DNA of 64,000 nt from Paenibacillus woosongensis (GTDB lineage: Bacteria; Bacillota; Bacilli; Paenibacillales; Paenibacillaceae): the NCBI RefSeq assembly GCF_009725165.1, contig NZ_WNZW01000002.1:682001-746000 (forward strand). Reading direction: 5' to 3'. This document shows, one piece after another, positions 15,990 through 61,890 of this stretch. How positions within the stretch are numbered: the first letter of the stretch is position 1; each line of letters starts with the position of its first letter. The notes under the pieces are model-generated. The model was not told the origin of the DNA, did no database searches, and saw nothing but the letters and a program-made list of their open reading frames with translations. Both the position numbers and the translations under genes were made by a program.

Positions 15990-16144
15990 CGATCTCACCT
16001 CCGGTTACGATTTCAGCAAGCTCAGCAAGAGCTAACTGCATCTTGATCTTATCGTTCTCCTGAACCTCAGCCAACTCAGCAAGAGCTATCTTTAACCCGT
16101 TGTTTTCCGCTCGGAGATGTTCGAGCTCGCTTGGCTCTTGTGTT
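15982..16144 (-). other. Out-of-frame (-1) continuation of the XkdW-like gene
   Basis: Directly after the A5 run at 16146-16142 (minus strand) the -1 frame stays open for 53 codons to a TAA at 15984-15982. It encodes a convincing coiled coil (SELEHLRAENNGLKIALAEL, then a second copy of QLALAELAE). The 0 frame meanwhile yields 16 low-complexity residues and stops at 16092. This reads as the natural C-terminus displaced by a one-base deletion, or reached by frameshifting. Confidence 0.65.
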
Positions 16145-16550
16145 TTTGCAGACTAGTGAGTTCGTCGACCTCTTCCAATGTCAACCCCTCGCCCCACATG
16201 TTGGGTTGTTCCAGAACGGTATAAACCGGTGGCTCCCCTCGTTCTTCTTCAGGTAGAGCGACCCATTCGGAGTAGACTCTTTGATATTCATCTTCTGTCG
16301 CCGTTACTTCGTCTTGGTACGCTTCCCACGCTGCCAAATCAAAACGCGGCCAAAACAATCCAGGGGACACCGGCACACCCACGATGTAACCGACCGGCTG
16401 CGGTTTCTTTTCGGAGAATTCGCCGTCCAGTTCCACTGGCTCCGTCTTAGGCGGTACAGCATAAAAAGGAACGACACCAGTAAAGGTATCGTCTACAAGT
16501 TCGTCTTCGATATAAAGGCCGTCAAGCCCAACTTTAGGTACTGCTTTCAA
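16092..16550 (-). CDS. XkdW-like fibre-adjacent protein, apparently frameshifted near its end
   Basis: 152 residues as read. The bulk is acidic and aromatic (VGYIVGVPVSPGLFWPRFDLAAWEAYQ; YQRVYSEWVALPEEERGEPPVYTVLEQPN) and resembles proteins encoded just after tail fibres in PBSX-type modules (xkdW position), possibly fibre-associated or assembly factors. The reading frame degrades after LTSLQK. The -1 frame continues with a coiled coil rich in LALAELAE to 15982, which would give a protein of about 189 residues. It starts 12 bases after the fibre stop. Exact function unknown. Confidence 0.65.
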   Translation of the reverse strand: MKAVPKVGLDGLYIEDELVDDTFTGVVPFYAVPPKTEPVELDGEFSEKKPQPVGYIVGVPVSPGLFWPRFDLAAWEAYQDEVTATEDEYQRVYSEWVALPEEERGEPPVYTVLEQPNMWGEGLTLEEVDELTSLQKHKSQASSNISERKTTG

Positions 16551-25799: not shown

Positions 25800-26216
25800 T
25801 TAAGGTCCTGTGATCGGATCAAGCAGATCATAGCCCTCGAAGGTGAACGGCGTTTCTTCAACAACCTCTTCCCCCGCCGTCCAATTAGCCAGCTGGATTC
25901 TATCGACCATACAGTTCTTCAGCTCAATGCGTTCAAAGCCGTACGCCTCTGGGTCATCCAGCTTCTGAATAATATTGAACTTCTGAAAGCCCCTCTGGAT
26001 CATGTCGGAGGTCACTTTGTAGCCGCTCATCGTACCGGTGCCTTTTTTGCGGCCCAGCTTGAAGACGGTGTATTCCGTGCCCACCAGATTGAGTTCTCTT
26101 TTATCCGCCTCTACGTTGGCCTCCAAGTGATTCAAGTTCGACTGCCATACGCCATCGATAAAAATCTGCCCGAACGTCCCCATAATGACGCGGCTTGGAT
26201 CGAGATATTGTGCCAT
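25800..26216 (-). CDS. xkdM: Tail tube protein XkdM
   Basis: A 138-residue inner-tube protein of the contractile tail. The beta-barrel pattern VIMGTFGQIFIDGVWQSNLNHLEANVEADKRELNLVGTEYTVFKLGRKKGTGTMSGYKVTSDMI is close to PBSX XkdM (DUF2001). Many copies stack into the tube that the sheath surrounds. It lies 21 bases after the sheath gene, as in all such modules. Confidence 0.94.
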   Translation of the reverse strand: MAQYLDPSRVIMGTFGQIFIDGVWQSNLNHLEANVEADKRELNLVGTEYTVFKLGRKKGTGTMSGYKVTSDMIQRGFQKFNIIQKLDDPEAYGFERIELKNCMVDRIQLANWTAGEEVVEETPFTFEGYDLLDPITGP

Positions 26217-26237: not shown

Positions 26238-27701
26238 TTATTGCACGTAGAACGTGCCGAAAATTTGTTCCATCACATCAGTGTCGTCCGCCTGCCAGGT
26301 CAGGAATACCTGATCATCCTCTGGCCGCATGACTGCGCCGTCCCCGTAAAATCTCGGATCCAGCGTCACGTCGTAGCCCGTAGCTTCGATGACACCCTCC
26401 GAAGCCAAAGACTGCAAATAATGCTTGCCAGCGCTAATCAGCGCCTGACGGCCTTCCTCTGTATTATTGACCTTGCCGATGTAATGATCCTCCGCCTGAC
26501 GCTGCAAATCAGCATTAATCTGGTCAATAACGCGGATTTTGCGGATTTTCTTCCAGCCCTTGTTCTGGCCCTGCTGCAAGGTAATCAAGCTGTTCACCCC
26601 GCGCAGCACCTTGACCCGGCGGCCGTCATGCACTAGCAGGAATACGCCGTTGTGCGCCGCCTGCTCCTGTTCCGAGCGCGTCCAGCGGCGGGTCACGTCC
26701 TCAAACGGCGACGCGGCATACGTCGTGGACTCTTTCAATGCCTGTCCAGCAATCAATCCGGCGACCCAAGAAGCGACCTGTGCGGAGGAATACGATTTTC
26801 CGTTCAATACAGCCCCCGTCCCTACGTTGATGACTCCTTCAAAATCCGCTGCGACACTGCGAGCAATTGCTTTATTCACGGCATCTGCGCCCGTATCCTC
26901 TGCGAATGTTCCGCCGAGTGCGGCCATAATGCCTTTGCCCTCGCTGCGCACCCGTTTGATCCAGGCGACAAGGCTCGTACGCAGCGCCGCGTCCGTAACC
27001 CCGTCGAGCGTTAACACATGAAAATCCTGCGTCTCAAAAGCTTCCGTAGCCGCGATATAATCCGCGTTCGTAATCCCTGAAATTCCGCTGGCCCCCCCTT
27101 CAAAAGTCACGCCGGACACATTGGCGAGGTCGCTGCTAAACAGCTTCTCCGCCACGATCCACTTATTTCCCGCATCCTCATTGATTGCGGCAACAGCAGT
27201 ATCCACATCGCCAGTACCCAGCGTGATCGTGCGGAGCAGCGCGTTGCCTTCATAGAGCTTGAGCTCCTTCACGTCCGGCACGGCCAGGCTCGATTGAATT
27301 GTCACCTTAAAAGCATTGCCGCGTTCGCCGCTGTATTTGGCGCTTAGCTTCAATACATCCTCAGGACTCGCTTCACTGTTCTTCAGTACAAGCTCGGCCG
27401 GCGCAGCAGAGCTGTCCGCAATCCGGTAGGCCAGCAGCTTCTTTGCGCCGCCAAGCAGGGAGAAGTACAGCGTCGTATAAGCCGTTGCCCCGCCGGATTC
27501 GTCGGTTGAAAACAGCTCTTTGATGGCATTTTCGCTCGTTACCTCCACAAATTGGCCGATCGGCCCCCAATGCGCCTTGACCGGAGCGACCACCACGCCC
27601 CGCGCGCCCGGCGCGATCGCTGATCCCGCCGCACTTACAAAGTTCATGAACAGCCCCGGCAATACCGGCTGACTCGTCAAATTCCAATTTCCTGCTGCCA
27701 T
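26238..27701 (-). CDS. xkdK: Contractile tail sheath protein XkdK
   Basis: A 487-residue sheath protein. The N-terminus LPGLFMNFVSAAGSAIAPGARGVVVAPVKAHWGPIGQFVEVTS and the C-terminal half are the family signature: KGIMAALGG; RSVAADFEGVINVG; PFEDVTRRWTRSEQEQAAHNGVFLLVHDGRRVKVLRGVNSL. The C-terminus ends FLTWQADDTDVMEQIFGTFYV, typical of phage_sheath_1 proteins that form contractile subunits. Its presence shows the particle is myovirus-like (R-type), not a flexible-tailed particle. Start ATG with AAGGTGA upstream. Confidence 0.95.
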   Translation of the reverse strand: MAAGNWNLTSQPVLPGLFMNFVSAAGSAIAPGARGVVVAPVKAHWGPIGQFVEVTSENAIKELFSTDESGGATAYTTLYFSLLGGAKKLLAYRIADSSAAPAELVLKNSEASPEDVLKLSAKYSGERGNAFKVTIQSSLAVPDVKELKLYEGNALLRTITLGTGDVDTAVAAINEDAGNKWIVAEKLFSSDLANVSGVTFEGGASGISGITNADYIAATEAFETQDFHVLTLDGVTDAALRTSLVAWIKRVRSEGKGIMAALGGTFAEDTGADAVNKAIARSVAADFEGVINVGTGAVLNGKSYSSAQVASWVAGLIAGQALKESTTYAASPFEDVTRRWTRSEQEQAAHNGVFLLVHDGRRVKVLRGVNSLITLQQGQNKGWKKIRKIRVIDQINADLQRQAEDHYIGKVNNTEEGRQALISAGKHYLQSLASEGVIEATGYDVTLDPRFYGDGAVMRPEDDQVFLTWQADDTDVMEQIFGTFYVQ

Positions 27702-28011: not shown

Positions 28012-28851
28012 TCAAATTGATGTTCGTTTGTGTTGAATAAACTGCATCCGTGCCCCCTCGTCCACAGCGCTCGTGATGCGCCGGCTGAACGTCACCGACA
28101 GCAGTCCCTCCGTTACTCCGTTTGCATTCCAATTTACCTTAGGCTCTAGGACGGTCAAATACGTCTTAGTGCCAGGTTGCAGCGGAATCTTCACTGCTTT
28201 TCCCAGGCCTTCAATCAGGGCAAGAACCGCCAGATGCTCTTGATCTGCATCCGTCCCGGCGATAAAGGCGGTGAACTTTTTCCGCAGCTCCCAAGAAGTT
28301 TTTCCATGCGGTGTCGATTCCATGTCGACAATCCGCCACATGACTGCGGGCGGTTCATAACCTAACGGCCAGCTGCCGTTATATACTTGCCAATCCGGGC
28401 CCAGCACACGCTGCGTCCATGTCTGGGTCGCATTAAGCCATGGGTCACTGCTGATTTGTACCGTTCGGCTTAGTGGTTGCGGCACCATCAAGGCGAACCG
28501 CAGGCCTCGTTTCACGGCATCCCTGGCTTCATCCGGCGTATCCGGCCCGATGTTTCCCTCGAAAACACAAAGGAATCTCTCCCCTGTCCCAGCCCTCAGC
28601 AGCTGCTTGTCCAGCGCTTTAACCGTTTCCTCACTCAACCCATCCAATCCGGCCGGACTTAAGCGGGGCACGTAAAGCCACAGCTCGATGATTTGCCTCA
28701 ACCCGGACCAGGCGCCGTTTGCTTCCACCTCTCCCTGCAAATACAACGCGCAAGGCAGTAAAGCTTCTTCCCCAAACCCGCTAGAAGAGTTATAGACCGC
28801 ATTCAGTCCGGGCACCGCATCCAGCAGCTTGGCTGTCACCGCACTTCTCAT
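28012..28851 (-). CDS. Tail terminator-like protein, apparently two-domain
   Basis: About 279 residues, upstream of the sheath where PBSX has xkdH-xkdJ (head-tail joining and tail terminator). The first half (KLLDAVPGLNAVYNSSSGFGEEALLPCALYLQGEVEANGAWSGLRQIIELWLYVP) looks like a tail-terminator fold. The second half (DPWLNATQTWTQRVLGPDWQVYNGSWPLGYEPPAVMWRIVDMES...LTVLEPKVNWNANGVTEGLLSVTFSRRI) repeats a similar beta-rich plan. It may cap tail length without a head. The start is set at ATG 28851, which overlaps the stop of a 17-codon leader frame; ATG 28863 lies further upstream. It is the first large gene of the structural operon. Confidence 0.65.
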   Translation of the reverse strand: MRSAVTAKLLDAVPGLNAVYNSSSGFGEEALLPCALYLQGEVEANGAWSGLRQIIELWLYVPRLSPAGLDGLSEETVKALDKQLLRAGTGERFLCVFEGNIGPDTPDEARDAVKRGLRFALMVPQPLSRTVQISSDPWLNATQTWTQRVLGPDWQVYNGSWPLGYEPPAVMWRIVDMESTPHGKTSWELRKKFTAFIAGTDADQEHLAVLALIEGLGKAVKIPLQPGTKTYLTVLEPKVNWNANGVTEGLLSVTFSRRITSAVDEGARMQFIQHKRTSI

Positions 28852-28901
28852 AAAGCACACCATTCCTGCATCACTAATTTATCTGCTCCGACATTGCACA
28901 A
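28848..28901 (-). CDS. Possible 17-residue leader peptide of the tail operon
   Basis: TTG start five bases after the strong site GGGGAGGTGA; product MCNVGADKLVMQEWCAL. Its TGA overlaps the next ATG (ATGA), the pattern of translational coupling. Only the ribosome site and overlap support it; there is no similarity evidence. Confidence 0.3.
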   Translation of the reverse strand: MCNVGADKLVMQEWCAL

Positions 28902-29222
28902 TGGTATCACCTCCCCTTAGGGCTGCCGCCTCGCTTTCGTGGACTCTCCCAAAGAACGGCAAAAACCGCTGATTCGTCAGCGGCTTTCGTCCCTCTCTAT
29001 TCATTTCCACAATACAAATTTAACACGTTTAAAGTACAGCGAACGGACATCCCCTGGTCATAAACCGGACATCGGGCGGACAGACTTTAATAACTCAACA
29101 TTTATCGATAAACGAAAAAAGCCTGCCTCGTCCATCCCAGAACAAGACAAGCCATCTATAAATGTCTTCTCCCCATAACATTCCCCCCATCGGCAGCACA
29201 TCGCACATTAGACTGTTTAGTG
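28902..29222. other. Intergenic region between the orphan BtrH-like gene and tail operon
   Basis: About 320 bases. It contains a terminator-like hairpin (28961-28986). No gene is seen. The tail operon promoter should lie here or upstream of the ArpU gene, but I found no convincing -35/-10 pair. Confidence 0.4.
28961..28986 (-). terminator. Hairpin between the orphan BtrH-like gene and tail operon
   Basis: On the minus strand GCCGCTGA-CGAA-TCAGCGG is followed directly by TTTTTG. The 7-bp stem with a tetraloop and T5 makes a compact Rho-independent terminator. Confidence 0.75.
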
Positions 29223-30248
29223 CTAACTTCCCGTAAGGGATTTAGCTAATTTCTCCAAATAGCTATACTCTATTGATTCAAGATCCATAATCATTGATTT
29301 TACCTTGGATGTGTCTGAGCTGTCCCCTTTAATTATTTGCTTAATCATGTAATTTCGAATAACTATGGCCTTTTCTTCAACTTCTTTAAACAACTTAATG
29401 TATAACTCATCATCTATTAAGTTCAGTCCTCCAAGAAACTCAATCCTTCTTGTCATTAATCGCTTATGTTCAAATAAAAGATGAAGGGCTCTTAAAAATT
29501 TAAAATTAGCCCCGGCCATATTACACAGCTCGTTATAGATTTTAATGCCGAAGGTAGGTTTCAAACTCCCATGCAGCTCTGGCCTTTCTTTTGGGACGCC
29601 TTCCAAAAAGCTATATTTATGTGAAGTATTCGTTGAATTTAAATAATCATAAAGGGTTTGAATAAAATATTCTAAATTAAAATCATATTTTTTCCATTGA
29701 TTGATTCCTATTAGTTGGATACCAAAAATATTATCCCATGAATCTGTACTATAATCATTTTTCAAGTCAACTGCTTTTTCTATTTCTTCAAAACTTGCCG
29801 TACTAAGCATATGAAAATTTTGAAAGTAATCTGCAACATAAAAAATATTCCTCTGTTTATTGTAACCGTAAACAAACAAATCATGAGGTGAACTTTTTCT
29901 AGTCTTGTAAGCTGAAATATGCTGTTTATCAATAAGAGTATATATGTAGTTATTGGAATCCAAGATTTGCATAAAAAAATCACAAATATTTATATTCAAA
30001 TTTGACAGCATAAGCTTACTTATGCTGTGAATGTTCAAAAGGGGATGATACTCCCTCATAAGGGGCTGATAAAATTCAAGAAAATAGTCCGTTTCAAATT
30101 CGTTATTATAAATATCGAACCTTAACTGCATATGATTGGTAAAAATCCAATTATTATAAGATGGATGCTGTACCAATATTGAGGAAATATTCGCATGAAT
30201 TGGATAACCTGTTATCAATGGTTGTCCCATAAATAATTTTTTTTCCAA
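29223..30248 (-). CDS. Orphan BtrH-like-fold protein inside the tailocin island
   Basis: A 341-residue protein of the same divergent family as 54708-55715, 58072-59001 and 60816-61850. Shared marks: PIHANISSIL at residues 16-25, HDLFVYGYNKQRNIFYVADYF at 122-142, and a helical C-terminal part (FLRALHLLFEHKRLMTRRIEFLGGLNLID). The plan resembles BtrH N-terminal-type proteins (cysteine-protease-like fold, aminoacyl transfer in butirosin). The position of the catalytic Cys is Pro16 here; His122 is kept. TTG start seven bases after AGGGGG. It is much more AT-rich than the tail genes around it and has its own terminator, so it looks like inserted cargo. Closest relative in the window by eye: 54708-55715. 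Confidence 0.6.
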   Translation of the reverse strand: MEKKLFMGQPLITGYPIHANISSILVQHPSYNNWIFTNHMQLRFDIYNNEFETDYFLEFYQPLMREYHPLLNIHSISKLMLSNLNINICDFFMQILDSNNYIYTLIDKQHISAYKTRKSSPHDLFVYGYNKQRNIFYVADYFQNFHMLSTASFEEIEKAVDLKNDYSTDSWDNIFGIQLIGINQWKKYDFNLEYFIQTLYDYLNSTNTSHKYSFLEGVPKERPELHGSLKPTFGIKIYNELCNMAGANFKFLRALHLLFEHKRLMTRRIEFLGGLNLIDDELYIKLFKEVEEKAIVIRNYMIKQIIKGDSSDTSKVKSMIMDLESIEYSYLEKLAKSLTGS

Positions 30249-30435
30249 AAGTTAACCCCCTACAGAACGAATTAATTTTCAATAGTCATACCATTTTTTC
30301 ACTGCCTTTAAACTACTTTAAACCTTTTTACATAATACTAAATTAAACGATTTAACTTTTCAACCATTTATTAACTTAATAAGGTAAAGATTTATATAAA
30401 ACCTAATAAATTTAGCGTAATCTCGATTTCATTAT

Positions 30436-30462
30436 TAAAAAAAAGCCGGCTTCAGCCGACTC
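30436..30462 (-). terminator. Terminator after the ArpU-type gene
   Basis: On the minus strand AGTCGGCTGAAGCCGGCT forms a 7-bp stem followed by a run of eight T. It overlaps the stop codon at 30461. Confidence 0.9.
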
Positions 30463-30949
30463 AATGCACAGATAAGGTTGCTCTCCTCTCCCCTGGTTCC
30501 ACAAATACTTCAAGCTTCATAGCTATGGCGAGCAGCTTGAGCGCGCTGGCTTTGATGCGCCGGTATGTCCGGTCGCTAATGCCCATTTCCCCGCAGCTGA
30601 TGAAGTCGTATTCGCGCTCGCCCGCCAAATAACTGCGTTCAATAACTTCGCGCTGCATAACGGTAAGCCCGCCCATGGCCTGATCCAGCAGCTCCGATTT
30701 TCTCCGCAGCTCAGCCTCCCGGTCGATATTGCGCAGCGCAACCTGCTCGGTCGGCTTGTGAACGGCATGTGTAGCCCCGTGATATCTCTGTGAATAGCTG
30801 TGCGTCACACTCGCCAGTTCGCGGATGTAGCCAATCTGCCGATACTGCCGCACCTCTTCAAGAAACCCAATAACCGCTGCTCGGGTTGCGGACTCATCCA
30901 CCGGCAAACTATGAAAAATCGTAAATGAATTCAATTGTCGCTTGCTCAT
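30461..30949 (-). CDS. ArpU-family phage transcriptional regulator
   Basis: A 162-residue protein. The sigma-region-4-like C-terminal helix-turn-helix (AMGGLTVMQREVIERSYLAGEREYDFISCGEMGISDRTYRRIKASALKLLAIAM) is characteristic of ArpU/RinA-type late-gene activators of Firmicute phages. The PBSX counterpart of similar position is the sigma-like Xpf. The N-terminal half is helical (TRAAVIGFLEEVRQYRQ). It probably switches on the tail operon. The start is set at ATG 30949 behind GGAGGG; a longer frame from 31084 has no ribosome site. It is divergent from the immR-like repressor across three operator-like palindromes. Confidence 0.83.
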   Translation of the reverse strand: MSKRQLNSFTIFHSLPVDESATRAAVIGFLEEVRQYRQIGYIRELASVTHSYSQRYHGATHAVHKPTEQVALRNIDREAELRRKSELLDQAMGGLTVMQREVIERSYLAGEREYDFISCGEMGISDRTYRRIKASALKLLAIAMKLEVFVEPGERRATLSVH

Positions 30950-31127
30950 TGTAAATCCCTCCATGAAATTCATTATTCTGCGTTTCCATTGCCAATACGG
31001 CAATAAAAACACTGTACACTTACAAAGCAACAGCCTTTGTTTTCTTAAACAAATTACGTTTAAAGTGTTGATTTGCCCCTTCATTCAAGGTAAAATACAT
31101 ATATAACGTTTTAATCCATTCACTAAA

Positions 31128-31142
31128 TTACCAATTCGGTAA
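31128..31142. promoter_or_regulatory. Repressor operator O1
   Basis: TTACCAATTCGGTAA is a palindrome with arms TTACC/GGTAA around a 5-base centre; one of three in the divergent region. Confidence 0.7.
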
Positions 31143-31160
31143 CGATAATCCGATTATATA

Positions 31161-31175
31161 TTACCATTATGGTAA
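31161..31175. promoter_or_regulatory. Repressor operator O2
   Basis: TTACCATTATGGTAA has the same arms as O1, with centres 33 bp apart. Confidence 0.72.
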
Positions 31176-31215
31176 TGTCAACATCTTACATCGTTAATTT
31201 CATTCAAATATTTCT

Positions 31216-31230
31216 ATGCCATTATGGTAA
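31216..31230. promoter_or_regulatory. Repressor operator O3
   Basis: ATGCCATTATGGTAA shares the CCATTATGGTAA core with O2, 55 bp away. It lies just before TATAGT, a likely -10 of the repressor gene (31243-31248), so it fits autoregulation. Confidence 0.68.
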
Positions 31231-31272
31231 TGGCGAGTTATTAGTATAGTTCAAACAAAAGAGGGAGTGTCT

Positions 31273-31626
31273 ATGCATACACTGGGCGATCGGATCAAAC
31301 ATCTTCGAGAACTGAGAAACTTAACCCAAAAAGACCTCGCATCTAGAGCAGGCTTAACGACTGTTCAGTTGTCGAGATATGAGACGAACGACCGGAAGCC
31401 AGACCCCGAATCGTTAAGAAGGATTGTCGATGCGCTGGATACCAACGGGGATTATTTGCTGGGGCGGACTTCCGATCCTTCGCCAACGGAGGAAATACAG
31501 GCGAGCATGTCCTTTTACGGCGGACCGGAGGCTTACACGGCGGATGAAATCGCTATGATGGAGGCCGCATTGAAGGCTTACCGCGAGCAGAAGAAAAAGC
31601 TTCTGGACAACCAATCCAATAATTAA
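31273..31626 (+). CDS. ImmR-like XRE repressor
   Basis: 117 residues. The N-terminal helix-turn-helix at about residues 5-60 (LGDRIKHLRELRNLTQKDLASRAGLTTVQLSRYETNDRKPDPESLRRIVDALDTNGDYLLG) is classic XRE/HTH_3. A 45-residue acidic/helical tail follows (DEIAMMEAALKAYREQKKKLLD). The start is set at ATG 31273, five bases after GAGGGAG; GTG 31267 overlaps that site. The metalloprotease gene downstream and three palindromic sites upstream match the ImmR/ImmA switch of ICEBs1 and phi105. It probably represses the tailocin. Confidence 0.88.
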   Translation: MHTLGDRIKHLRELRNLTQKDLASRAGLTTVQLSRYETNDRKPDPESLRRIVDALDTNGDYLLGRTSDPSPTEEIQASMSFYGGPEAYTADEIAMMEAALKAYREQKKKLLDNQSNN

Positions 31627-31737
31627 CTATAATGAAGGCATTACCCTGCAATCTCATTTATTCTCATTCGGGTCCTTAACCAGGACCTTTATTTGCACCT
31701 TTATACCGAACATACATTCCCATAAGGGGTGATCTCC

Positions 31738-32331
31738 ATGTTATTTTGTTATTATCAAGAGACCCATCTGGAGCAGTGGATTAATGCAAAATACCGAAGC
31801 AGCGGCCTGCTTGATGCCGAGCAGCATGATATCGAGCGGATTGCGGAAGCTTTTGACATAGAACTCATATATGCAGACTGCCCGTCTTTTTCAGATAACG
31901 AGGAACGGGTCATATTCCTGAATAAACATACCCACGATGTGATGGCCCGGGTCATTTTCTTCCATGAATTATGCCATGTCCTGAGGCATGCAGGTGATCA
32001 GCGCGTCATGCCCAGCCTGTTCAAGGATGCCCAGGAAGCGGAGGCGGATCAATTTGTCCTGTATGCAGCCGTCCCTTTCTACATGTTCGAGAAATTGCCC
32101 ATTCCGGATCAGCGGAGCGAAGCCATCCCTTTCATCTCTGAAGTATTCCATATTCCGCTTGAACTGGCCGAGCAGCGGCTCGATCAAATTCAGCGGCGCG
32201 TCCTGCACGGCAGTCTGATGGCAGCGGCCCAGGAGGCTGAAAGAAGACAGAAGGAGACCGTGGTCAAATGGTCGCCCGAAACACAGCGGATTCTTTCCCA
32301 ACTGGAGAAGCAGCTTTGGGAGAAGGGGTGA
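31738..32331 (+). CDS. ImmA/IrrE-family metallopeptidase (anti-repressor)
   Basis: 197 residues with the zinc-protease motif HELCHVLRH near residue 78 (HExxH) and a downstream acidic QEAEADQFVLYAAVPFYMFE that supplies the third ligand. Known ImmA proteins cleave their partner ImmR-type repressor after DNA damage or cell signals. Here it follows the repressor by 110 bases on the same strand. The start is set at ATG 31738 behind AAGGGGTGA. The C-terminal 60 residues are helical and charged. Likely function: induction of the tail particle genes. Confidence 0.88.
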   Translation: MLFCYYQETHLEQWINAKYRSSGLLDAEQHDIERIAEAFDIELIYADCPSFSDNEERVIFLNKHTHDVMARVIFFHELCHVLRHAGDQRVMPSLFKDAQEAEADQFVLYAAVPFYMFEKLPIPDQRSEAIPFISEVFHIPLELAEQRLDQIQRRVLHGSLMAAAQEAERRQKETVVKWSPETQRILSQLEKQLWEKG

Positions 32332-32335
32332 ATAT

Positions 32336-32662
32336 ATGCGGATAAGAGCATTTTGCGATTTCTATAACGAAGCCTATAGGCCTTTGCAGCTTGTGATCAA
32401 ATGTGAGCCGGGCGAGCTGGACTGGTCACAGACATTATACATATCCCTGCCTTCTCCCCTCGAGCCGCTGGAGGCCGAGGATTACGGCGATGAACGAGGC
32501 GTGTCCGTGTTAATGGACGATCTGGTGAGCCAGGCAGATGACGACAGCCTCCTTGGTATTTTGCTCCCGCAAATCTACGGGCGCCACGGAGAGACTTTTG
32601 AACTGCTCCTTGTCCAAATGGATGACGTCGAGGAAATCCTTCAATTGGACAGGTATTACTGA
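32336..32662 (+). CDS. Uncharacterised small acidic protein in the immR-immA operon
   Basis: A 108-residue acidic protein (RIRAFCDFYNEAYRPLQLVIKCEPGELDWSQTLYISLP; ending VQMDDVEEILQLDRYY). I do not recognise a family. It starts 4 bases after the immA stop, so it belongs to the same operon. No membrane segment, signal or known motif is visible. A modulator of the switch is one possibility. Convergent with the rhamnosidase gene across a shared terminator. Confidence 0.65.
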   Translation: MRIRAFCDFYNEAYRPLQLVIKCEPGELDWSQTLYISLPSPLEPLEAEDYGDERGVSVLMDDLVSQADDDSLLGILLPQIYGRHGETFELLLVQMDDVEEILQLDRYY

Positions 32663-54707: not shown

Positions 54708-55715
54708 CTAAAACCTTTTATATGTAAGAAGAAGTTTATTTAAAAAATTTACTTCCATTAAATATACTTTTTCAAGAGTATTCAGTATTTTTATTATATT
54801 TTTTTTGTCTTTTGTTAAGTTAAATTTGATATTTAAATTCATTGCGATCTGTAAATCTCTTAGAATTACATTGATACATTCTAATAATTCTGTATTTTTA
54901 ATACCCATTTTTTTAAAAGTAAATTCTGTACGATCTTTCATTAGTTTTTTATGTTCGATTAAAATATAAAAATTCTTTGTTAATAAATTGATTTTTTCGT
55001 CATATAAAGCTAATCTATAGTGCTTAATTAACACTTTATATATTGATATGCCAAAAAAAGTATTACAATTTGTGTAGTAATCTTTAGCATAATTTTTAAT
55101 GGTGTTCGCCGAATGCTTATACTCAGTAATTAAACAAACTAACAAATCTTTATTTAAATTACTTTCTACAAATTTAGGCTTCAACATAAATATTTTTTTT
55201 AGATAGTCATCGTTATTTATTTTGAAATATTCAGGTAATTTTTCATATGATTTCCTTAATTCAGAGTAGCCTACCAAGTTAAACGAAAATTTATTATTAA
55301 TATCATAACCCACTACATTAAAAGTCTTGTTCTCTTCATTATAACCATATATCATTATCCCATGCCCTAAATTATAATTTCTATAAGCCCTAGAAAATGG
55401 CAGGAAATACTCATCAACATGTAAAAAAATATAGTATTCTTTTTCAATATGCTCTACTAAAAATTTAATAATATCAACATCAATTTCTCTTCTAGTTAGT
55501 AAATAACTGTCATCTTTAAACTGTGAATAAGATAAAAAGTCATCTTCACAATAATCAAGCACTGCGACTTCATTTTTATATTCATCTACTTTAAACTGTA
55601 TGTATTTATCAAATATTAGGTGATCAATTTGATGATTAACCTCTAATATTGACATAATGTATGAATGTTGAGGTAGCGAATCTATTGTTGGATATACAAG
55701 AGGAAGAACCTTCAT
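54708..55715 (-). CDS. BtrH-like-fold protein A (Cys position replaced by Pro)
   Basis: 335 residues, AT-rich gene, last of the cluster. Same family as 29223-30248: PQHSYIMSIL at residues 15-24, HGIMIYGYNEENKTFNVVGYD at 118-138, and the helical ending ILIEHKKLMKDRTEFTFKKMG near residue 270. If the fold is BtrH/papain-like, Pro15 stands where the catalytic Cys would be, while His118 remains, so it may bind but not acylate. Start ATG with GGAGG. Function unknown; family assignment is by motif spacing seen by eye. Confidence 0.6.
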   Translation of the reverse strand: MKVLPLVYPTIDSLPQHSYIMSILEVNHQIDHLIFDKYIQFKVDEYKNEVAVLDYCEDDFLSYSQFKDDSYLLTRREIDVDIIKFLVEHIEKEYYIFLHVDEYFLPFSRAYRNYNLGHGIMIYGYNEENKTFNVVGYDINNKFSFNLVGYSELRKSYEKLPEYFKINNDDYLKKIFMLKPKFVESNLNKDLLVCLITEYKHSANTIKNYAKDYYTNCNTFFGISIYKVLIKHYRLALYDEKINLLTKNFYILIEHKKLMKDRTEFTFKKMGIKNTELLECINVILRDLQIAMNLNIKFNLTKDKKNIIKILNTLEKVYLMEVNFLNKLLLTYKRF

Positions 55716-55992: not shown

Positions 55993-56601
55993 TCACCTTA
56001 TTAGAAGTCTTTTGGTTTTCAGATAATTTATAATTTTAGCTACAGAATCTTCAAGGTCCTGATGGTCAGTTTCAATAATAAGCTCGGGACAAATCGGCTC
56101 TTCATACGGGTCGGTTATGCCAGTAAAATTCTTAATTTCACCCTTTCTTGCCTTTTCATAAAAGCCCTTTGGATCCCTTCGCGCACATTCTTCCAGGGAG
56201 CACTTTACATATATCTCAATAAAGCTGTCCCCAGTAAATAATGCTCGAACCGCTTCCCTGTCTTCTCGATACGGCGAAATAAAAGCAGCTAATACAATTA
56301 ATCCTGAATCAACAAATAATTTTGCTACCTCTCCTATGCGACGTATATTCTCTTTTCGATCTTCAGGAGAGAACCCCAAATCTTTATTAAGACCTTGTCG
56401 AATATTATCTCCATCTAGAATATATGACCTAATATTAGAATGATACAGTGCTTCTTCGACAGCTACAGATAGTGTTGACTTGCCTGCTCCCGATAATCCA
56501 GTAAACCACAGTACACAACTTTTATGTTGATTTAAAAGATAACGATCTTCTCTAGTTATTAAAGCTTGATTCCAACCGATATTTTTCTGGCTCTGTAGCA
56601 C
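55993..56601 (-). CDS. cysC: Adenylylsulfate kinase (CysC-type)
   Basis: 202 residues. Phosphorylates adenosine-5'-phosphosulfate to PAPS, the donor used by sulfotransferases. P-loop GLSGAGKST at residues 35-43; DGDNIRQGLNKDLGFSPEDRKENIRRIGEVAKLF and LVLAAFISPYREDR-type wording (IVLAAFISPYREDREAVR); KCSLEECARRDPKGFYEKARKGEIKNFTGI. All are CysC hallmarks. GTG start after AGAGGTGA. No assimilation genes (sulfurylase, PAPS reductase) accompany it. A sulfotransferase gene is next, so it likely supplies PAPS for the product of this cluster. Confidence 0.93.
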   Translation of the reverse strand: MLQSQKNIGWNQALITREDRYLLNQHKSCVLWFTGLSGAGKSTLSVAVEEALYHSNIRSYILDGDNIRQGLNKDLGFSPEDRKENIRRIGEVAKLFVDSGLIVLAAFISPYREDREAVRALFTGDSFIEIYVKCSLEECARRDPKGFYEKARKGEIKNFTGITDPYEEPICPELIIETDHQDLEDSVAKIINYLKTKRLLIR

Positions 56602-56798
56602 TATTTTTCACCTCTATTGCTAGTACATTTCAATCTGCTATCCAACTATGAAACCTAATCTTGACATTAGCCCCGACTCAACTGTTAATATCATCTAGAA
56701 ATTACGAGAAGATGTAAAATACCTATATCGTCAGCACATTAAACAGAATTCACTTCTTATCTTCAGTTTATCAATGCCCTCTCAAGCCCTACACTCAA

Positions 56799-57611
56799 CT
56801 AATATTCATTCTGATAACCGTGTGGCAAAATGTAATTGTTTGAACATAGATCTCTTAGTTTTATGTGAGTATCTAATACAATAGGCAGGATCTGATCATA
56901 AATATCCCCAGTCCAAGATTCTGCATTATAACTCGGTATACTTTGAAGATATATGGAACCATCCTCTGTCCTATTGCCAATTGTTATTTTCTTTCCAGAG
57001 GCATTATTAACTGCAAGATAATTGTAGTTAAGTTCTAATTGATCCAATCCTTTTTGTATTAAATCATTCTTAAATCTTTCTAGTGTCACAACAGGATTAG
57101 AGCACAATTCATCATAACTTAAGATGACTCTATTTTTCTGCGGTATAAATTTTGCATTAGAATAAAATTTACTCCACAAATTAGCTCTTTCTATCCAATT
57201 AGCCCCTGCCCATTTATAACCGATGTGATACGATTTTTCCAAACTCTGGATTACACCCGAAAAATGTCGTATAACTAATATGATTATTGCATTGGGATAT
57301 TTATATAAAAGATCATTAATAATTAACATGTTCCACGGAGTTGAGTCACAGAAAAATTGTTTATTTTTTTTTAGTGTTATACTAGTAGCAAATACAGAAG
57401 AGAATTCCTGTAATTCCCTTATATATTTTTTTTTGTATGGAGAAGGAACCCCATAAAACTCTCTTGGGGCAATATAATAACTAAAGAAAAAGCCTGAAAA
57501 CTCCTCCATATTACAAACAGAATTAGTATTGCCAATAACATTCCCTATAAGAGTCGTCCCAGAGCGAGGAGAACCTACCACAAAAATTGGAACCACTTTT
57601 TTGTCATTCAA
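56799..57611 (-). CDS. PAPS-dependent sulfotransferase
   Basis: 270 residues of the Sulfotransfer family. The 5'-phosphosulfate loop is PIFVVGSPRSGTTLIGNVI (residues 8-26). The 3'-phosphate site lies near residue 105-122 (NAIIILVIRHFSGVIQSLEK). VILSYDELCSNPVVTLERFKNDL is the typical later region. The wording is like bacterial carbohydrate/lipid sulfotransferases. TTG start behind GAAGGAAAAA. It stands between the APS kinase gene and an acyl-carrier gene, which points to sulfation of the cluster's product. The acceptor is not known. Confidence 0.87.
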   Translation of the reverse strand: MNDKKVVPIFVVGSPRSGTTLIGNVIGNTNSVCNMEEFSGFFFSYYIAPREFYGVPSPYKKKYIRELQEFSSVFATSITLKKNKQFFCDSTPWNMLIINDLLYKYPNAIIILVIRHFSGVIQSLEKSYHIGYKWAGANWIERANLWSKFYSNAKFIPQKNRVILSYDELCSNPVVTLERFKNDLIQKGLDQLELNYNYLAVNNASGKKITIGNRTEDGSIYLQSIPSYNAESWTGDIYDQILPIVLDTHIKLRDLCSNNYILPHGYQNEY

Positions 57612-57808
57612 TATCTTTTTCCTTCTTTCTATTTAGCGAAATTAATATGCAACTAGAATAAAAGTGGACACCTCATAAGTGAAGCCAATAATATGATGAA
57701 AGAAGAGTTGTCCGAGATCAAATGTGCAACGGTCACACTGAAAAAATAAAATCAAGTCATAAGGTATACTGCTAACAACCAAATGAAGATTTACTACCGT
57801 TCGGGCAT
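57612..57808. other. Spacer, possible insertion-sequence scar
   Basis: About 200 bases between the sulfotransferase gene and the acyl-carrier gene. On the minus strand TGTCCACTTTTATTC recalls the ends of some IS3-type elements, and no matching second end or transposase frame is present. The TGTCCAC resemblance is weak evidence. Confidence 0.25.
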
Positions 57809-58045
57809 TTACTTCACCAGGTTTTTATCAATTAATGAAATGATTTTTTCAATTCTATCGAAATTTTCCATTAACAAATCATCATCAGCAATCGTTATGC
57901 CGATTTTTTCTTCGAGTTGAACGATAAATTGAATTGTCTTGATTGAATCTAATCCTTGGTCAACCAGATTTTCGTCAGGATTAAGAGAATTTTGACTTTC
58001 TAAAACTTTTTCTATCAATTCGAGCACAATCCGTCTCATATCCAA
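57809..58045 (-). CDS. Acyl carrier protein (second)
   Basis: 78 residues, acidic and four-helical. The phosphopantetheine site is DQGLDSIKTIQFIVQLEEKIGITIADDDL, with Ser34 in LDSI. The DSI motif and following helix are classic ACP. TTG start behind AAGGAGTG (ATG at the third codon is also possible). It lies 26 bases after a BtrH-like gene (58072-59001). It would carry a thioester-bound acyl or aminoacyl group, presumably loaded by the AMP-forming ligase of the cluster. Confidence 0.85.
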   Translation of the reverse strand: MDMRRIVLELIEKVLESQNSLNPDENLVDQGLDSIKTIQFIVQLEEKIGITIADDDLLMENFDRIEKIISLIDKNLVK

Positions 58046-58071
58046 TCTAGGTCACTCCTTTTGATAATAAT

Positions 58072-59001
58072 TTATTTTAAAGATTGTATTTTACAGTAAA
58101 CTTTCTCTTCCTGATTTATGATATCATTTAGTTTATTCATTATCCTGGTTAGAATCTCAGTCTTATTTTTGCTGTATCTCCCTTTTATTAACATCCCCCT
58201 TAGTATCCTCCATTCCCTTCCTAAATTAGAAATACTCTTAGCTGGGCTTAAAAGCGAAGTCCAGCCCGAATGATCAGCAAGGTAGTTCAATGAAATGGCG
58301 TACTTGATATGGCCCAATCCAACTGAAACAAATTTGTCAAGTATTTGATCTGCAGCTTCAATGTAATTATTACTTATAATCCCCTCAAATATCTGTCCTT
58401 CTTCAAGTTCAGTTTGCAATTTTTTCATCATTAGAGTATTGACATTTAATATTGATTCCGTTAGCAACTGCCTAGGATCTATCCGTAAATTAGGAACAGA
58501 ATTAAATTGAAAGGTATTACAAATATTACAACCATCAAAGAATTCATCGAAGGGAATCTCTTGCCATTGAATATCACTTGCAAAGTGAGTAATCTTATAT
58601 CCATAAAAAACTTTTTCCTCAACACTAAAACCAAATAATAGTAGGACATAGTCATCTGATTTTGTAGAATAGCTTTCTTTGCCTACAGTTAATGGTCGTC
58701 CAGCACTCAATTCTCCCCTAGCAAGTTCGAGAATTGTACCTTTTGACAGGTTCGAGTGATACGTTGTTTTTATACCGTGATATTTCTCCAGTAAATGGAA
58801 TTTATCATCATCAGGCAATTCAATTCGTTGGCTAATATCCCATACGTTGGGAAGACCAACCCCTTCATACGAAAATCTCCAAGATTTTAAGTACATGTAT
58901 TCATAATCCATTTTTCTCCAAGTGGCTATTGTCGCAACTGCATTTTCCATACAATCAAAAGCTTCATATATAAAGGGCTTAATGGTATTTAAGTTGGGCA
59001 A
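58072..59001 (-). CDS. BtrH-like-fold protein B (Cys kept, His replaced)
   Basis: 309 residues from TTG 59001, six bases after GAGGTG; GTG 59010 is an alternative. The N-terminus has FDCMENAVATIATWRKMDYEYMYLKSWRFSYEG, close to BtrH_N-type starts, with Cys17 at the nucleophile position. The later beta strand DYVLLLFGFSVEEKVFYGYKI aligns with HxxxxxYGYN... of its relatives, but Tyr stands at the His position. Helical C-terminus. It lies between the ligase and the second ACP genes. Possible role: acyl transfer from ACP, or a non-catalytic partner. Confidence in the family is moderate. Confidence 0.6.
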   Translation of the reverse strand: MPNLNTIKPFIYEAFDCMENAVATIATWRKMDYEYMYLKSWRFSYEGVGLPNVWDISQRIELPDDDKFHLLEKYHGIKTTYHSNLSKGTILELARGELSAGRPLTVGKESYSTKSDDYVLLLFGFSVEEKVFYGYKITHFASDIQWQEIPFDEFFDGCNICNTFQFNSVPNLRIDPRQLLTESILNVNTLMMKKLQTELEEGQIFEGIISNNYIEAADQILDKFVSVGLGHIKYAISLNYLADHSGWTSLLSPAKSISNLGREWRILRGMLIKGRYSKNKTEILTRIMNKLNDIINQEEKVYCKIQSLK

Positions 59002-59113
59002 TAAAAACACCTCATATAAAATAAATAAATTTAGAATACGGTACTCCTGCCGCTTTGCTGTATAAGTATCAAATGGTATAATGCATGTAATTTATAATGT
59101 AGGAGAATCATTT

Positions 59114-60454
59114 CTACCTTCTAACATTTTTAAATCTGTAGTTAAATAGTTCATCATTCGTGACTTCTACCTTAACGGGAATTTTATAAGGCTCTAATTT
59201 TTCTGCACAAAATCTCCTAATCCGATCTTTAACCGACATAGCGCTTTCTGAATTAATAACGTTTACTTTCGCTGTTACTACTTCCCCAAGAAGAGGATTG
59301 GGGGCACCTATAACTACGACATTTTTAATATTTGGGACTTGCATAATGATGTTTTCAATCTCGACGGGATAAACTTTTTCCCCGCCGACATTAATAATTT
59401 CAGATTTTCTGCCAAGTATTTTTACATATTCCCCCTTTACAAGCACTTGATCTTGCGTGTTAAACCATCCCTCTTCGTCAAAAGGATTGGGGGCGTTAAG
59501 ATAGCCCAGAATGGCAGATTCGGCTTTAATGTATAAGATTCCATCTACCACCTTAGTTTGATATCCCTCCCCCCCTATTTTTACCCATAGCGAATCGGAG
59601 CTTTCAGACCTTGTTCTCAGAATTCCTACCTCAGAGAGCCCATATGTTTGTTTAAATTTAACGTTGGGCAGAAGTTCGACAAGCCTTTTAAGTGTTGTCT
59701 CAGGCATCACTTCTGTCCCGTAGGTAATAATTTTCAATGAAGAAAGATCATAATGTCTGAAGCTTTCGGAAACAAGCAGTAAATTCAAAAAAGTAGGTGA
59801 GGTCGGCAAAATCTCTACTTTATGTTCCTGAATGATTTGGCACACATCCTCAGGTCGTCTGCTTTTGCAAGTTATTACAGTGCCACAAGAAGCTAATGTA
59901 TGAAGTATAGTGTTTATCCCACCTACATGATCCAAATGTAAAAACGCAAGAATTCGATTTGGGCCTTTTGTCGTTTTATATTTTTGTAATAGTTTAGTAA
60001 GGTCGTGTACACCTCCCTTCTGTTTACCAGTGGAACCTGAGGTAAACAAGACAAGCCCAGGCTTCCCCTCCTCAATAAGTTTTTCTAAAAGTATATTTGT
60101 GACAACATAATTGTGATTCTCTAACGTAAGAGATTCGTTTTTAACGATCAGTCTTTTAGAACAACCGGCAAGTTGCATGAGCTCTTCCTTCTGTCCCTCT
60201 GATGACTTACTGCTAAGCAGAACAATAATGTTACGGTTTGCTATTAATGCAAAAATAGCCGCGCAAATGATTGGTGAATAATCGCAATCTATCGCCACCG
60301 CTTCACCTGGCCGGAGATCCGCTTTCTTAAAATAGTCCAAACTGTATTCGTACATATTTAAAATTTCAGAGTAGTTATACACTCGATCTTCAAATATGAT
60401 CGCTTCTGTATCAGGCCGGTTGCGAAAATTATTAATCAACCAATTGATTATCAA
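59114..60454 (-). CDS. AMP-forming acyl/aminoacyl-ACP ligase (ANL superfamily)
   Basis: About 446 residues. Core motifs: FTSGSTGKQKGGVHDL (A3), YGLSEVGILRTRS (A5), GWFNTQDQV and ILGRKSEIINVGGEKVYPVEIENII (A7/A8), and near the C-terminus FKNVRR in the place of GK-LR, with the catalytic Lys kept. It activates a carboxylic acid as adenylate and passes it to a pantetheine thiol. The start is set at TTG 60454 behind GGGAGGAA; a frame from ATG 60493 overlaps the previous ACP gene. Flanked by ACP genes on both sides. It is short, single-domain and lacks condensation domains, so it is a stand-alone loader. Confidence 0.88.
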   Translation of the reverse strand: MIINWLINNFRNRPDTEAIIFEDRVYNYSEILNMYEYSLDYFKKADLRPGEAVAIDCDYSPIICAAIFALIANRNIIVLLSSKSSEGQKEELMQLAGCSKRLIVKNESLTLENHNYVVTNILLEKLIEEGKPGLVLFTSGSTGKQKGGVHDLTKLLQKYKTTKGPNRILAFLHLDHVGGINTILHTLASCGTVITCKSRRPEDVCQIIQEHKVEILPTSPTFLNLLLVSESFRHYDLSSLKIITYGTEVMPETTLKRLVELLPNVKFKQTYGLSEVGILRTRSESSDSLWVKIGGEGYQTKVVDGILYIKAESAILGYLNAPNPFDEEGWFNTQDQVLVKGEYVKILGRKSEIINVGGEKVYPVEIENIIMQVPNIKNVVVIGAPNPLLGEVVTAKVNVINSESAMSVKDRIRRFCAEKLEPYKIPVKVEVTNDELFNYRFKNVRR

Positions 60455-60486
60455 TACGTATTCCTCCCATTTGCAAATAATATCAC

Positions 60487-60798
60487 TTAACATTCAGTCT
60501 CTATTAAATAAAGTTTATAGATATAATCAGCCAACGTACTCACGGTCATAAATGGGCTGTTTGGGGCTGAAAAAACCTTTTCATCCAATAGAGTATGCGG
60601 AATACTTCCAAATTGATCGATAATTCGTTCCTCTACACATAAAATGAAACTAACAAATCCAATAGAATCCAATACGGTTCCTTTTCCCGACAAAGGGGTC
60701 CGTTCACTTTTTACCAGATAATATCCATCTTGTTGATAGTGGTTCGCCTCATCCATTGCGTCATATATTAAATTTAATGCAGTTTCGTAAAGAATCAT
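60487..60798 (-). CDS. Acyl carrier protein-like protein (first)
   Basis: 103 residues. The carrier motif is TVLDSIGFVSFILCVEERIIDQFG with Ser45 in LDSIGFV, and the four-helix ACP pattern extends around it. It has an N-terminal extension of about 20 residues compared with typical ACPs (YETALNLIYDAMDEANHY). Directly precedes the ligase gene, whose upstream-most possible start overlaps it. Start ATG behind AAGGTGG. Likely receives the acyl group from that ligase. Confidence 0.8.
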   Translation of the reverse strand: MILYETALNLIYDAMDEANHYQQDGYYLVKSERTPLSGKGTVLDSIGFVSFILCVEERIIDQFGSIPHTLLDEKVFSAPNSPFMTVSTLADYIYKLYLIETEC

Positions 60799-60815
60799 TG
60801 GCTTTACTCACCACC

Positions 60816-61850
60816 TTATTTGGCCTTTAGTCTTAAACGGTTTTCTATTTCCTCAAATAAGAGCTCATGGTACTTTACTTCATATTCGTAAATCGGGGTT
60901 AATTTGTTAATGGATGCGATTAGAGCTTTTTTGTTATAAATTGAAGTATGTTTATATCGTCCTAACACTGCCCTTATATAGATATAGCGATTAATAATGG
61001 ACTCTAGTAAGGTAATTTCTTCACTATCTTGGTTTAAGAGTTTTAACATTCGGTATTTGTCAGTCAATTTATCAAACATAATATCGTGGATAGTGTCATA
61101 TAATTCTTCTATATTTTCCGAAAGTAACCCCTCATCGGATACAATTCGGCTATAGTCCAGTATAAACGCTTTCAAATACTCTAACCCTTTTACGATAAAC
61201 TCTTTTTCCTGAATCATTTTTATCATAAAGTTATGAATATAATGATCCGCGGTTCCGGAAAAACGCTCAATTAGGATGTCCTTCTCATCTTCTATAGCAA
61301 AATACTCAAAATAAGTCTCTTTACCCAGTTCACTATAATTCTCAACATACCCGTTATAAGTATCCATCAAACCTACATATGATATCGTTTTTCTTTCATA
61401 ACCGTTCGGATAAGGATTTTCAACAACATCCAATATTTCAAATGTATGCTCCGTATCGTTGAATCCATATACCAAAAAACAGTGAATTATATGGCGTAAT
61501 TGATATTTTGCATTTCCTGGCATATAATAAGGATCTGCATACACAATTACGTATCGATCTTCCATAATTGCTCTTTTAATATCATCAATTATGTTAGCAC
61601 TTCTTCCCTTTTTGTATACTTGAACGGAAAGATCCTTCATTAATTGACTTAACTCTCTAATTTGATTGATTTCCACATACAGTTTTATGTTCTCTTTAAA
61701 CTCGCTTAACCCATATTTGAAGGTATAGTTAAAAAGAAAGGGCTCAATTGGCCGTTGATATTGATTCATTATGCTGAAAATTCCATGAAGTAAACAACTT
61801 TTTAAATTTGCTTCCCCAAAAGGTTCGATTCTGAGTACTTTTTGTTTCAT
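60816..61850 (-). CDS. BtrH-like-fold protein C (Cys and His kept)
   Basis: 344 residues. The putative triad is complete: Cys19 in LKSCLLHGIFSIM, His123 in IHCFLVYGFNDTEHTFEILD and Asp141 at the end of that strand pair. This is the pattern of BtrH_N-type and other papain-fold transferases, which take an acyl group from an ACP. The C-terminal half is helical (YIYIRAVLGRYKHTSIYNKKALIASINKL), shared with the other copies. Start ATG behind GGGAGGAA. It sits next to the ACP and ligase genes, so it is the likely active acyltransferase of the set; inference. Confidence 0.65.
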   Translation of the reverse strand: MKQKVLRIEPFGEANLKSCLLHGIFSIMNQYQRPIEPFLFNYTFKYGLSEFKENIKLYVEINQIRELSQLMKDLSVQVYKKGRSANIIDDIKRAIMEDRYVIVYADPYYMPGNAKYQLRHIIHCFLVYGFNDTEHTFEILDVVENPYPNGYERKTISYVGLMDTYNGYVENYSELGKETYFEYFAIEDEKDILIERFSGTADHYIHNFMIKMIQEKEFIVKGLEYLKAFILDYSRIVSDEGLLSENIEELYDTIHDIMFDKLTDKYRMLKLLNQDSEEITLLESIINRYIYIRAVLGRYKHTSIYNKKALIASINKLTPIYEYEVKYHELLFEEIENRLRLKAK

Positions 61851-61890
61851 AGTTCCAATTCCTCCCTAATCCAAATTTATTAGAAAAATT

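Follow-up and report, generated by a model that had tools for sequence, protein, structure and literature searches.

The reverse-strand gene at 29223–30248 of the analysed stretch of Paenibacillus woosongensis DNA (64,000 nt; hereafter the window) encodes a solitary protein, predicted to adopt the BtrH/CcbD fold, that lacks the cysteine nucleophile of this fold and is inserted between the activator and the tail operon of a tailocin island. We read it as a working, horizontally gained passenger that acts in trans on carrier-bound metabolites or together with cysteine-bearing BtrH paralogues, and we give this reading a probability of about one half. In the best reading of the data, it is neither a known phage gene nor a decayed gene, and it is not a component of the tailocin.

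An intact, AT-rich gene inside a tailocin island

Among the island genes read, matches to sheath, tail, XkdN-like, baseplate, fibre, holin and endolysin proteins were found, and the 18 other island proteins scanned (the ORFs at 16092–16550 and 32336–32662 were left out) returned no capsid, portal or terminase match. As tail and lysis matches are present and head and packaging matches absent in the proteins scanned, a combination that agrees with the definition of a tailocin, in which genes for sheath, baseplate, fibre and lysis occur without any for head or packaging, the sequence points to a headless contractile-tail island, for which "tailocin" is a fair name. The activator matched a PHROG transcriptional activator (E 3.5e-24); its name, ArpU, is the label of the first-pass annotation and is assumed here, and the phrog_365 tail protein is presumably the tube (Table 1). 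Between the tail operon and the variable junction with the activator (the slot) lies a 94-bp element. Of 32 inspected loci, 21, the window among them, have all or part of it in front of the tail gene. It is probably late-operon control DNA and possibly responds to the activator. The tailocin of genome G001 carries the element twice (L079 6380–6460 and 18512–18603), with one copy near the lysis end.

The gene runs for 341 codons without a break from a TTG start to a TAG stop, with a ribosome-site-like stretch (GTAGGGGG) 7 bases 5′ of the start; both start and frame are those of its orthologues. No damage was seen in this copy, its frame being open and the orthologue-invariant residues retained. 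Terminator-like hairpins with T-runs flank it on either side, both reading in the direction of the gene. A hairpin scan of 28800–31300 yielded five sites (two overlapping), compared with 1.7 in shuffles. Relative to shuffled sequence, the hairpin 3′ of the gene (29153–29120) folded at z −5.4 and that of the activator side (30462–30443) at a moderate z −2.1, with 8 of 200 shuffles equally good. The former probably belongs to the island rather than to the passenger, since it resembles sequence in slots that hold other genes. A promoter-like site upstream of the gene (30363–30335) reached chance level only in the scan of 28800–31300. The description given in the first-pass annotation, of a gene placed between an ArpU-type activator and the tail operon, with its own TTG start and ribosome site and a separate terminator, is borne out by the sequence, in which a ribosome-site-like stretch and a terminator-like hairpin occur at these places.

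Base composition sets the gene apart, in agreement with the AT-richness noted at first pass. Its GC content is 0.307, compared with 0.517 in the flanking 20 kb and 0.51–0.57 in five island genes measured, and its GC3 is 0.305 vs. 0.60–0.66 in five island genes. Part of this bias is shared by the family, of which 52 of 55 genes have a lower GC content than the DNA around them (mean difference −0.074), with the present gene at the extreme (−0.21). For this reason, composition alone was discarded as proof of recent transfer. Identity as a phage gene was also rejected, as tblastn of the protein against 50,697 phage records gave no match at E ≤ 0.01, a PHROG search gave none, and its structural model had no viral fold match at E ≤ 0.001.

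Table 1. Features of the window around the gene and in the biosynthetic cluster.
Feature	Position	Strand	Basis or remark
Tail protein, phrog_365	25800..26216	-	
Tail sheath	26238..27701	-	
First gene of the tail operon, phrog_2146	28012..28863	-	
94-bp element between slot and tail operon	28990..29083	.	Sequence comparison of tail-gene loci
Stretch differing from the slot of G022/G062	29084..30436	.	Homology resumes on both sides
Terminator-like hairpin 3′ of the gene	29120..29153	-	Similar sequence in the G001 and G011 slots (other genes there)
The gene: solitary cysteine-less protein of 341 aa, BtrH/CcbD fold (predicted), TTG start	29223..30248	-	ORF, Pfam, fold match, alignment
Terminator-like hairpin 3′ of the activator gene	30443..30462	-	Present also in G022 and G062
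ArpU-type activator	30461..30958	-	PHROG transcriptional activator
HTH repressor-type regulator	31267..31626	+	
IrrE/M78-type metallopeptidase	31729..32331	+	
Paralogue of the gene, beside the biosynthetic cluster	54708..55715	-	25% identity
Acyl carrier protein of the cluster; candidate in-trans partner	57809..58045	-	
Cysteine-bearing BtrH-type protein	58072..59010	-	Profile alignment; no Pfam match of its own
Cysteine-bearing BtrH-type protein	60816..61850	-	

A predicted transferase fold without a conserved cysteine

With the AlphaFold model of the protein (pLDDT 86.8, pTM 0.83; 10 sequences), Foldseek returned 19 PDB hits at E ≤ 0.001, all of them CcbD, CtaG or AziU2/U3-complex chains matched over the full length with TM scores of 0.47–0.60. 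VIA scored CcbD at Z 17.4 (294 residues, 4.3 Å, 10% identity), CtaG at Z 16.2 (272 residues) and an AziU2/U3 chain at Z 15.7, with rmsd values of 4.3–5.6 Å over the three; the next family, phytochelatin synthase, followed at Z 10.4 and matched the papain-like half only. The full-length fold that marks CcbD/CtaG/BtrH transferases is present in the model, by which the protein is a two-domain representative with a papain-like half and a helical bundle. The Pfam family BtrH_N (PF14399) matched the protein below threshold (E 0.087; 13.5 bits vs. a cut-off of 29.7) and was found at E ≤ 0.1 in 8 of 14 family members (best 5e-5). Profile comparison with cysteine-bearing BtrH-like neighbours gave a match at 96% probability (E 4e-9). 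Nothing useful came from querying PDB sequences with either the family profile or the window protein at 60816. Kinship to CcbD and CtaG, as modelled, shows by fold only, and the earlier label "BtrH-like" holds by fold while being weak by sequence.

The catalytic cysteine that CcbD/CtaG/BtrH transferases bear at the start of the first long helix was not found. Across family positions 14–20 no cysteine is conserved: 31 of 37 members have none at all and the other six have one, at three different columns, and none occurs at these positions in the present protein or the six near relatives aligned with it. His122, equivalent to the active-site histidine by profile alignment, is found in 36 of the 37 members, as is Arg298 of the helical bundle, with a second basic residue there, Lys/Arg303, in 35; Lys262 and Tyr238 occur in all 37. 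Asp140 is invariant in the seven near-subfamily rows, and the position is Asp in 11 of the 37 members and Gly in 13. A non-enzymatic role is conceivable for a protein whose branch does not conserve the cysteine and keeps Asp140 in no more than 11 of 37 members. Naming the exact residue that replaces the cysteine was abandoned: MAFFT placed Tyr15 there (against the window protein at 60816) and forced-global hhalign a gap between 17 and 18, with no conserved cysteine at the matching place in either alignment. The cysteines of five BtrH-type proteins from the same clusters align, which is no independent finding because these proteins were chosen partly for a visible cysteine. Cysteine-bearing and cysteine-less proteins stand side by side in the window cluster and at two other loci (L118 and L037); the PKS-like protein of L133, and likewise that of L134, has a cysteine-bearing domain at its end.

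The literature searched under the family names, as far as its text was available, held no description of a cysteine-less CcbD/BtrH-fold branch. A little-annotated multicopy branch is now linked to solved carrier-protein enzymes and, with loss of the nucleophile both natural and widespread, the function of the fold without its nucleophile can be asked.

Family members beside carrier proteins and on their own

At E ≤ 1e-3, the family was detected in 23 of 59 genomes searched (own genome, G000, included), with 61 matches in total and eight divergent members in G000; by this search, the branch is multicopy in Paenibacillaceae and their kin. Neighbourhoods and GC differences were counted for 55 genes of 300–480 aa whose best label was this family, leaving out ORF-picker misses (L041, L124, L127, L129, L131, L150), a 627-aa ORF (L146) and a stub (L158). 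Carrier-protein, NRPS, PKS (ketosynthase) or AMP-ligase genes lay within 9.5 kb of 31 of these 55 genes, which are not independent, as several loci come from near relatives; the remaining 24, the present gene among them, had no such neighbours, although some may be missed where contig ends cut the locus (L121, L138, L156, L160). The 9.5 kb on either side of 29223–30248 contain no gene for a carrier protein, a ligase or a synthetase. Neighbour labels were assigned by phmmer with hand-picked seeds and include borderline cases, e.g. a 202-aa NRPS fragment in L155. Of six ACP seeds, those from L045 and L047 lacked a Pfam carrier match (E ≤ 0.001); a recount with the four Pfam-confirmed seeds again gave 31. 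Biosynthetic genes of these kinds were found in none of 11 tailocin loci without a family gene, which are shorter stretches (5.8–19.9 kb) and a non-random set.

Within the window, genes for an APS kinase, a sulfotransferase, an ACP, an AMP ligase, a PIG-L deacetylase and two cysteine-bearing BtrH-type proteins form one cluster (55993–62538) which, taken with the AziU-type fold, is to our mind reminiscent of sulfate-leaving-group chemistry. A cluster recurring in L047 (G016) and L045 (G020) unites S8-peptidase-like/DUF1611, ACP-like (the two seeds without a Pfam match), PqqD, radical SAM and two ABC transporter genes with a family member. In L134, L136, L137, L142 and L153, from families f6 and f9 of the order, genes for a PKS-like ketosynthase, an ACP, a radical SAM protein and a family member follow each other in fixed order. 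Solitary copies occupy shared housekeeping places across genomes (L042, L145, L157; L135, L148; L159, L160), next to NIF3, thiamin genes (by eye) or Spo0A. Orthology of the NIF3-side genes of G000 and G046/G038 is not supported, the genes being 21–22% identical and their flanking genes 46–55%; so little likeness between copies of two families points to fast divergence or repeated insertion.

Selection was gauged by dN/dS on relatives; the copy at 29223–30248 has no close orthologue. Among 24 pairs of related loci with a value, 21 fell at 0.06–0.29 and three at 0.47–0.63; a thiamin-side pair and one cross-family pair had no usable dS. Five pairs of cluster copies ranged from 0.06 to 0.23 and four solitary pairs from 0.08 to 0.20, namely 0.12 beside AhpC/F-like genes (G000/G022), 0.20 for G255/G080, and 0.09 beside Spo0A and 0.08 beside NIF3, the last two being from two genomes of one genus with saturated synonymous sites. 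Judged by the pairs with usable values, solitary relatives look to be under constraint. The idea of a decayed transfer, raised at first pass, is not supported for this copy, with its open frame and retained conserved residues, nor by these values for related loci, although broken relatives do exist.

Intact copies also occur where a cluster is missing. G010 and G016 share the gene at 80% identity (dN/dS 0.24), but of the S8/ACP/rSAM/ABC cluster, complete in G016, only a remnant adjoins it in G010, suggesting that the cluster was lost; the G022 orthologue of the window paralogue at 54708 (82% identity to the G000 gene, dN/dS 0.25) has no carrier gene nearby. Such copies would suit orphan self-protection, the strongest rival of a trans-acting carrier-protein partner. 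On this account, the proteins without the cysteine would bind a metabolite or sequester it, and a copy standing alone would be an orphan immunity gene, retained or exchanged as a defence against what competitors make; the eight divergent copies in one genome would agree with it, as would a gene shared by the related species G255 and G080 (L116, L117) at 89% identity over 1026 bp with unlike immediate flanks. However, a copy that persists without a cluster could also serve a different assembly line, the fold of the family and its regular position within ACP/rSAM/PKS operons are just as compatible with biosynthesis, and no toxin or product was recognised. Moreover, the places in G255 and G080 are related by a shared 4.9-kb block 2.3–2.7 kb from the gene, on opposite sides, which rules out a gene-only match in unrelated places and indicates a local move or local gain instead. 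We rank self-protection second and consider it unlikely. Transposase-like ORFs were seen by eye near the gene in L116 and L117. Degraded family members were encountered as a broken gene in P. helianthi, a 115-aa stub in G022 and a short frame in G014.

A seemingly permissive slot at the activator/tail junction

A same-species genome (G062) and a sister species (G022) are 95–96% identical to the window on both the tail side and the activator side of the slot. The slot itself measures 246 bp in G062 vs. 1341 bp in the window, with homology resuming at 30425, and 258 bp in G022 vs. 1353 bp in the window. The gene was not found in G062 at E ≤ 1e-50; it is present in one of the two genomes of the species compared and missing from the slot of the sister species, and these alignments show a gain in the lineage of this strain. 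The first-pass suspicion that a biosynthetic-type gene had been gained horizontally and inserted at the tailocin is upheld by its absence from both slots.

The distance between activator and tail gene, approximate since measured from match ends, was below 1 kb in 12 of 24 genomes, 1.2–1.7 kb in five (window included) and 3.9–35 kb in seven. This count covers 24 of the 26 tail-gene genomes, G001 (different contigs) and G050 (1.4 Mb apart) being left out; G007, G010 and G033 each gave two tail matches, of which the match close to the activator was used. Slot contents varied from UPF0261 and PEP-hydrolase-like genes (G011) to an AraC regulator plus a GH53 galactanase (G001; G004 has ORFs nearly identical to these) and a MacB-type exporter (G015). 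Slots of the group around Paenibacillus sp. PCH8 hold a small gene; that of L165 tested as DUF3139-type, and several more look similar to it by eye. By its contents, the slot looks permissive and appears to collect unrelated genes, a warning against reading tailocin neighbours as parts of a weapon. In two genomes related to PCH8, we observed a streptomycin-adenylyltransferase-like gene (G271, L179 180–1058; PF04439, E 1e-115) and an ORF similar to it by eye (G294, L182).

The near subfamily to which the gene belongs is rare, with matches at E ≤ 1e-60 in 8 of 392 genomes sampled from the order. Three of the eight are 34–37% cousins (G080, G225, G255) and one is the broken P. helianthi gene; the four intact loci are those of the window, P. 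bouchesdurhonensis (G004), P. tarimensis and PCH8. Relatives closer than the one in the window (25% identity) exist in the own genome (29%) and elsewhere (56%), so that the first-pass statement of a nearest relative 25 kb away is right for the window (54708–55715) and wrong for the genome and beyond. The near gene of P. bouchesdurhonensis has an NRPS and a second family member beside it, that of P. tarimensis closes a ketosynthase/ACP cluster, and that of PCH8 sits immediately 5′ of the tail operon in a homologous tailocin, on the strand opposite to the window case. The PCH8-type arrangement was met in IMG/VR on L093, whose gene is identical to that of PCH8 and therefore probably from the same strain, and on four further contigs. 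These five IMG/VR contigs, each with a near orthologue, end at the gene; a sixth, L095, carries a 25% relative. Among 59 genomes around PCH8, the near gene was found in PCH8 only, with a cousin in G080. The tail gene is present in 23 of 44 genomes of the PCH8 group, and of 20 loci inspected that of PCH8 alone has the gene upstream; in eight of its closest relatives, ~257–282 bp 5′ of the tail gene are 87–91% identical to PCH8 and are followed by other genes. The comparison of related genomes proposed at first pass had a mixed outcome: the same slot was occupied in PCH8 and the IMG/VR contigs, two near relatives sit at biosynthetic clusters, and G062 and G022 lack the gene.

In the gene tree, PCH8 groups with P. 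bouchesdurhonensis (99/99), apart from the window gene. With this placement and the opposite orientation, the gains look independent, and the near subfamily has apparently entered the tailocin slot at least twice, separately. Use of the same slot in a second genus is a hint of a tailocin link, short of proof, and is counted as no more than that because many genes find a place in the slot, the sample is small and the recurrence was spotted post hoc. True tailocin cargo would be co-selected with the tailocin, e.g. by protecting the producer at release or by modifying the particle or cell surface. Such a role would account for two of the four intact near loci (392 genomes) lying in the same slot of homologous tailocins from different genera, and dN/dS between two PCH8-type lineages is 0.23–0.29 (within a lineage 0.24–0.63, from 1–11 differences only). 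We nevertheless find it quite improbable, as the slot holds such a gene in only 2 of 52 tail-gene genomes (the window and one other lineage; upstream DNA was looked at to 1.5 kb in 49 of them), many unrelated genes use it, terminator-like hairpins lie between gene and operon, and the other sampled family members reside at other loci. The cargo proposal of the first-pass annotation is thus left with the same subfamily in the same slot of a second genus, while the hairpins that bracket the gene and the variability of the slot argue against a role in the tail operon. Neither of the outcomes named there as counting against its view of the locus, absence from all related tailocins together with frame damage, or equal composition across the island, was observed.

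Less probable still is a neutral recent transfer with no present role: presence in one of two genomes of the species, the extreme AT content and the existence of broken relatives would suit it, but the gene has an unbroken frame, with start, ribosome-site-like stretch and terminator-like hairpin all in place, and keeps the orthologue-invariant residues.

Proposed mode of action

A working passenger would have entered at the permissive slot, between the terminator of the activator and the upstream element of the tail operon. From that position, it would probably have its own expression and leave tailocin control undisturbed, and we predict that its expression is probably independent of the tailocin. 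In characterised members of the fold, the acyl or aminoacyl group of a carrier protein is handed on to an amine; the present branch has lost the conserved cysteine nucleophile but keeps the active-site histidine (36 of 37) as well as conserved Arg/Lys residues of the helical bundle. The protein may dock on phosphopantetheinyl carrier proteins or pair with a cysteine-bearing BtrH paralogue. Assembly lines encoded at other places in the genome would be its targets in trans, and it could serve them as a partner subunit or carry out a histidine-assisted transfer directly.

More broadly, the cysteine-less CcbD/BtrH-fold proteins of Paenibacillaceae and their kin might make up a large class, so far unannotated, whose members move as single genes, can outlive their source assembly lines and settle repeatedly in permissive intergenic docks, of which the tailocin activator/tail junction would be one. 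Such a class would form a traded pool of trans-acting or protective factors for metabolites made on carrier proteins. This generalisation is tentative, and we would sooner bet against it than for it.

Comparison with known systems

Like the "moron" genes of prophages and tailocins, the gene lies in an island of phage origin with a start, a terminator-like hairpin and a base composition of its own; unlike them, it has no match among phage records, PHROGs or viral folds. BtrH of butirosin biosynthesis is described in the available text as an ACP:aminoglycoside acyltransferase of the papain-like clan (PMC10318531). BtrH-type transacylases were noted before in peptide clusters, as stated in the accessible part of PMC2922099, and the portion available of PMC3949708 lists darE, in a pigment cluster of Azoarcus, as a "BtrH-like peptidase" gene. 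In contrast to BtrH itself, the scores inspected for the present family fall below the curated PF14399 cut-off, and what matches is positions 70–134 of the model, its His end.

AziU3/AziU2 (azinomycin), solved as a two-protein complex, has the fold in common with our protein, the matched chain being AziU2 or AziU3. CtaG, proposed as the closthioamide peptidyl transferase with carrier-to-carrier transfer in the text available (PMC6772006), likewise has the fold in common and carries the cysteine that is absent here. PDB titles name the CtaG variants C11A, H128A and D144N, and C11/H128/D144 is taken as its triad.

The amide synthases CcbD (celesticetin) and LmbD (lincomycin) differ from the present protein in that it lacks the catalytic cysteine as well as an adjoining carrier or sugar partner gene; they resemble it in the fold (CcbD, full length) and in the region of the active-site histidine. 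CcbD transfers carrier-bound proline to its own cysteine and on to the amino sugar, and docks the carrier through arginines 312, 316 and 324, according to the part of the report available (PMC12945683). The basic helical-bundle residues of our protein would correspond to this carrier contact. As the same text describes CcbD borrowing residues from its dimer partner (PMC12945683), a mixed dimer of the cysteine-less protein with a cysteine-bearing paralogue is, by analogy, a reasonable guess.
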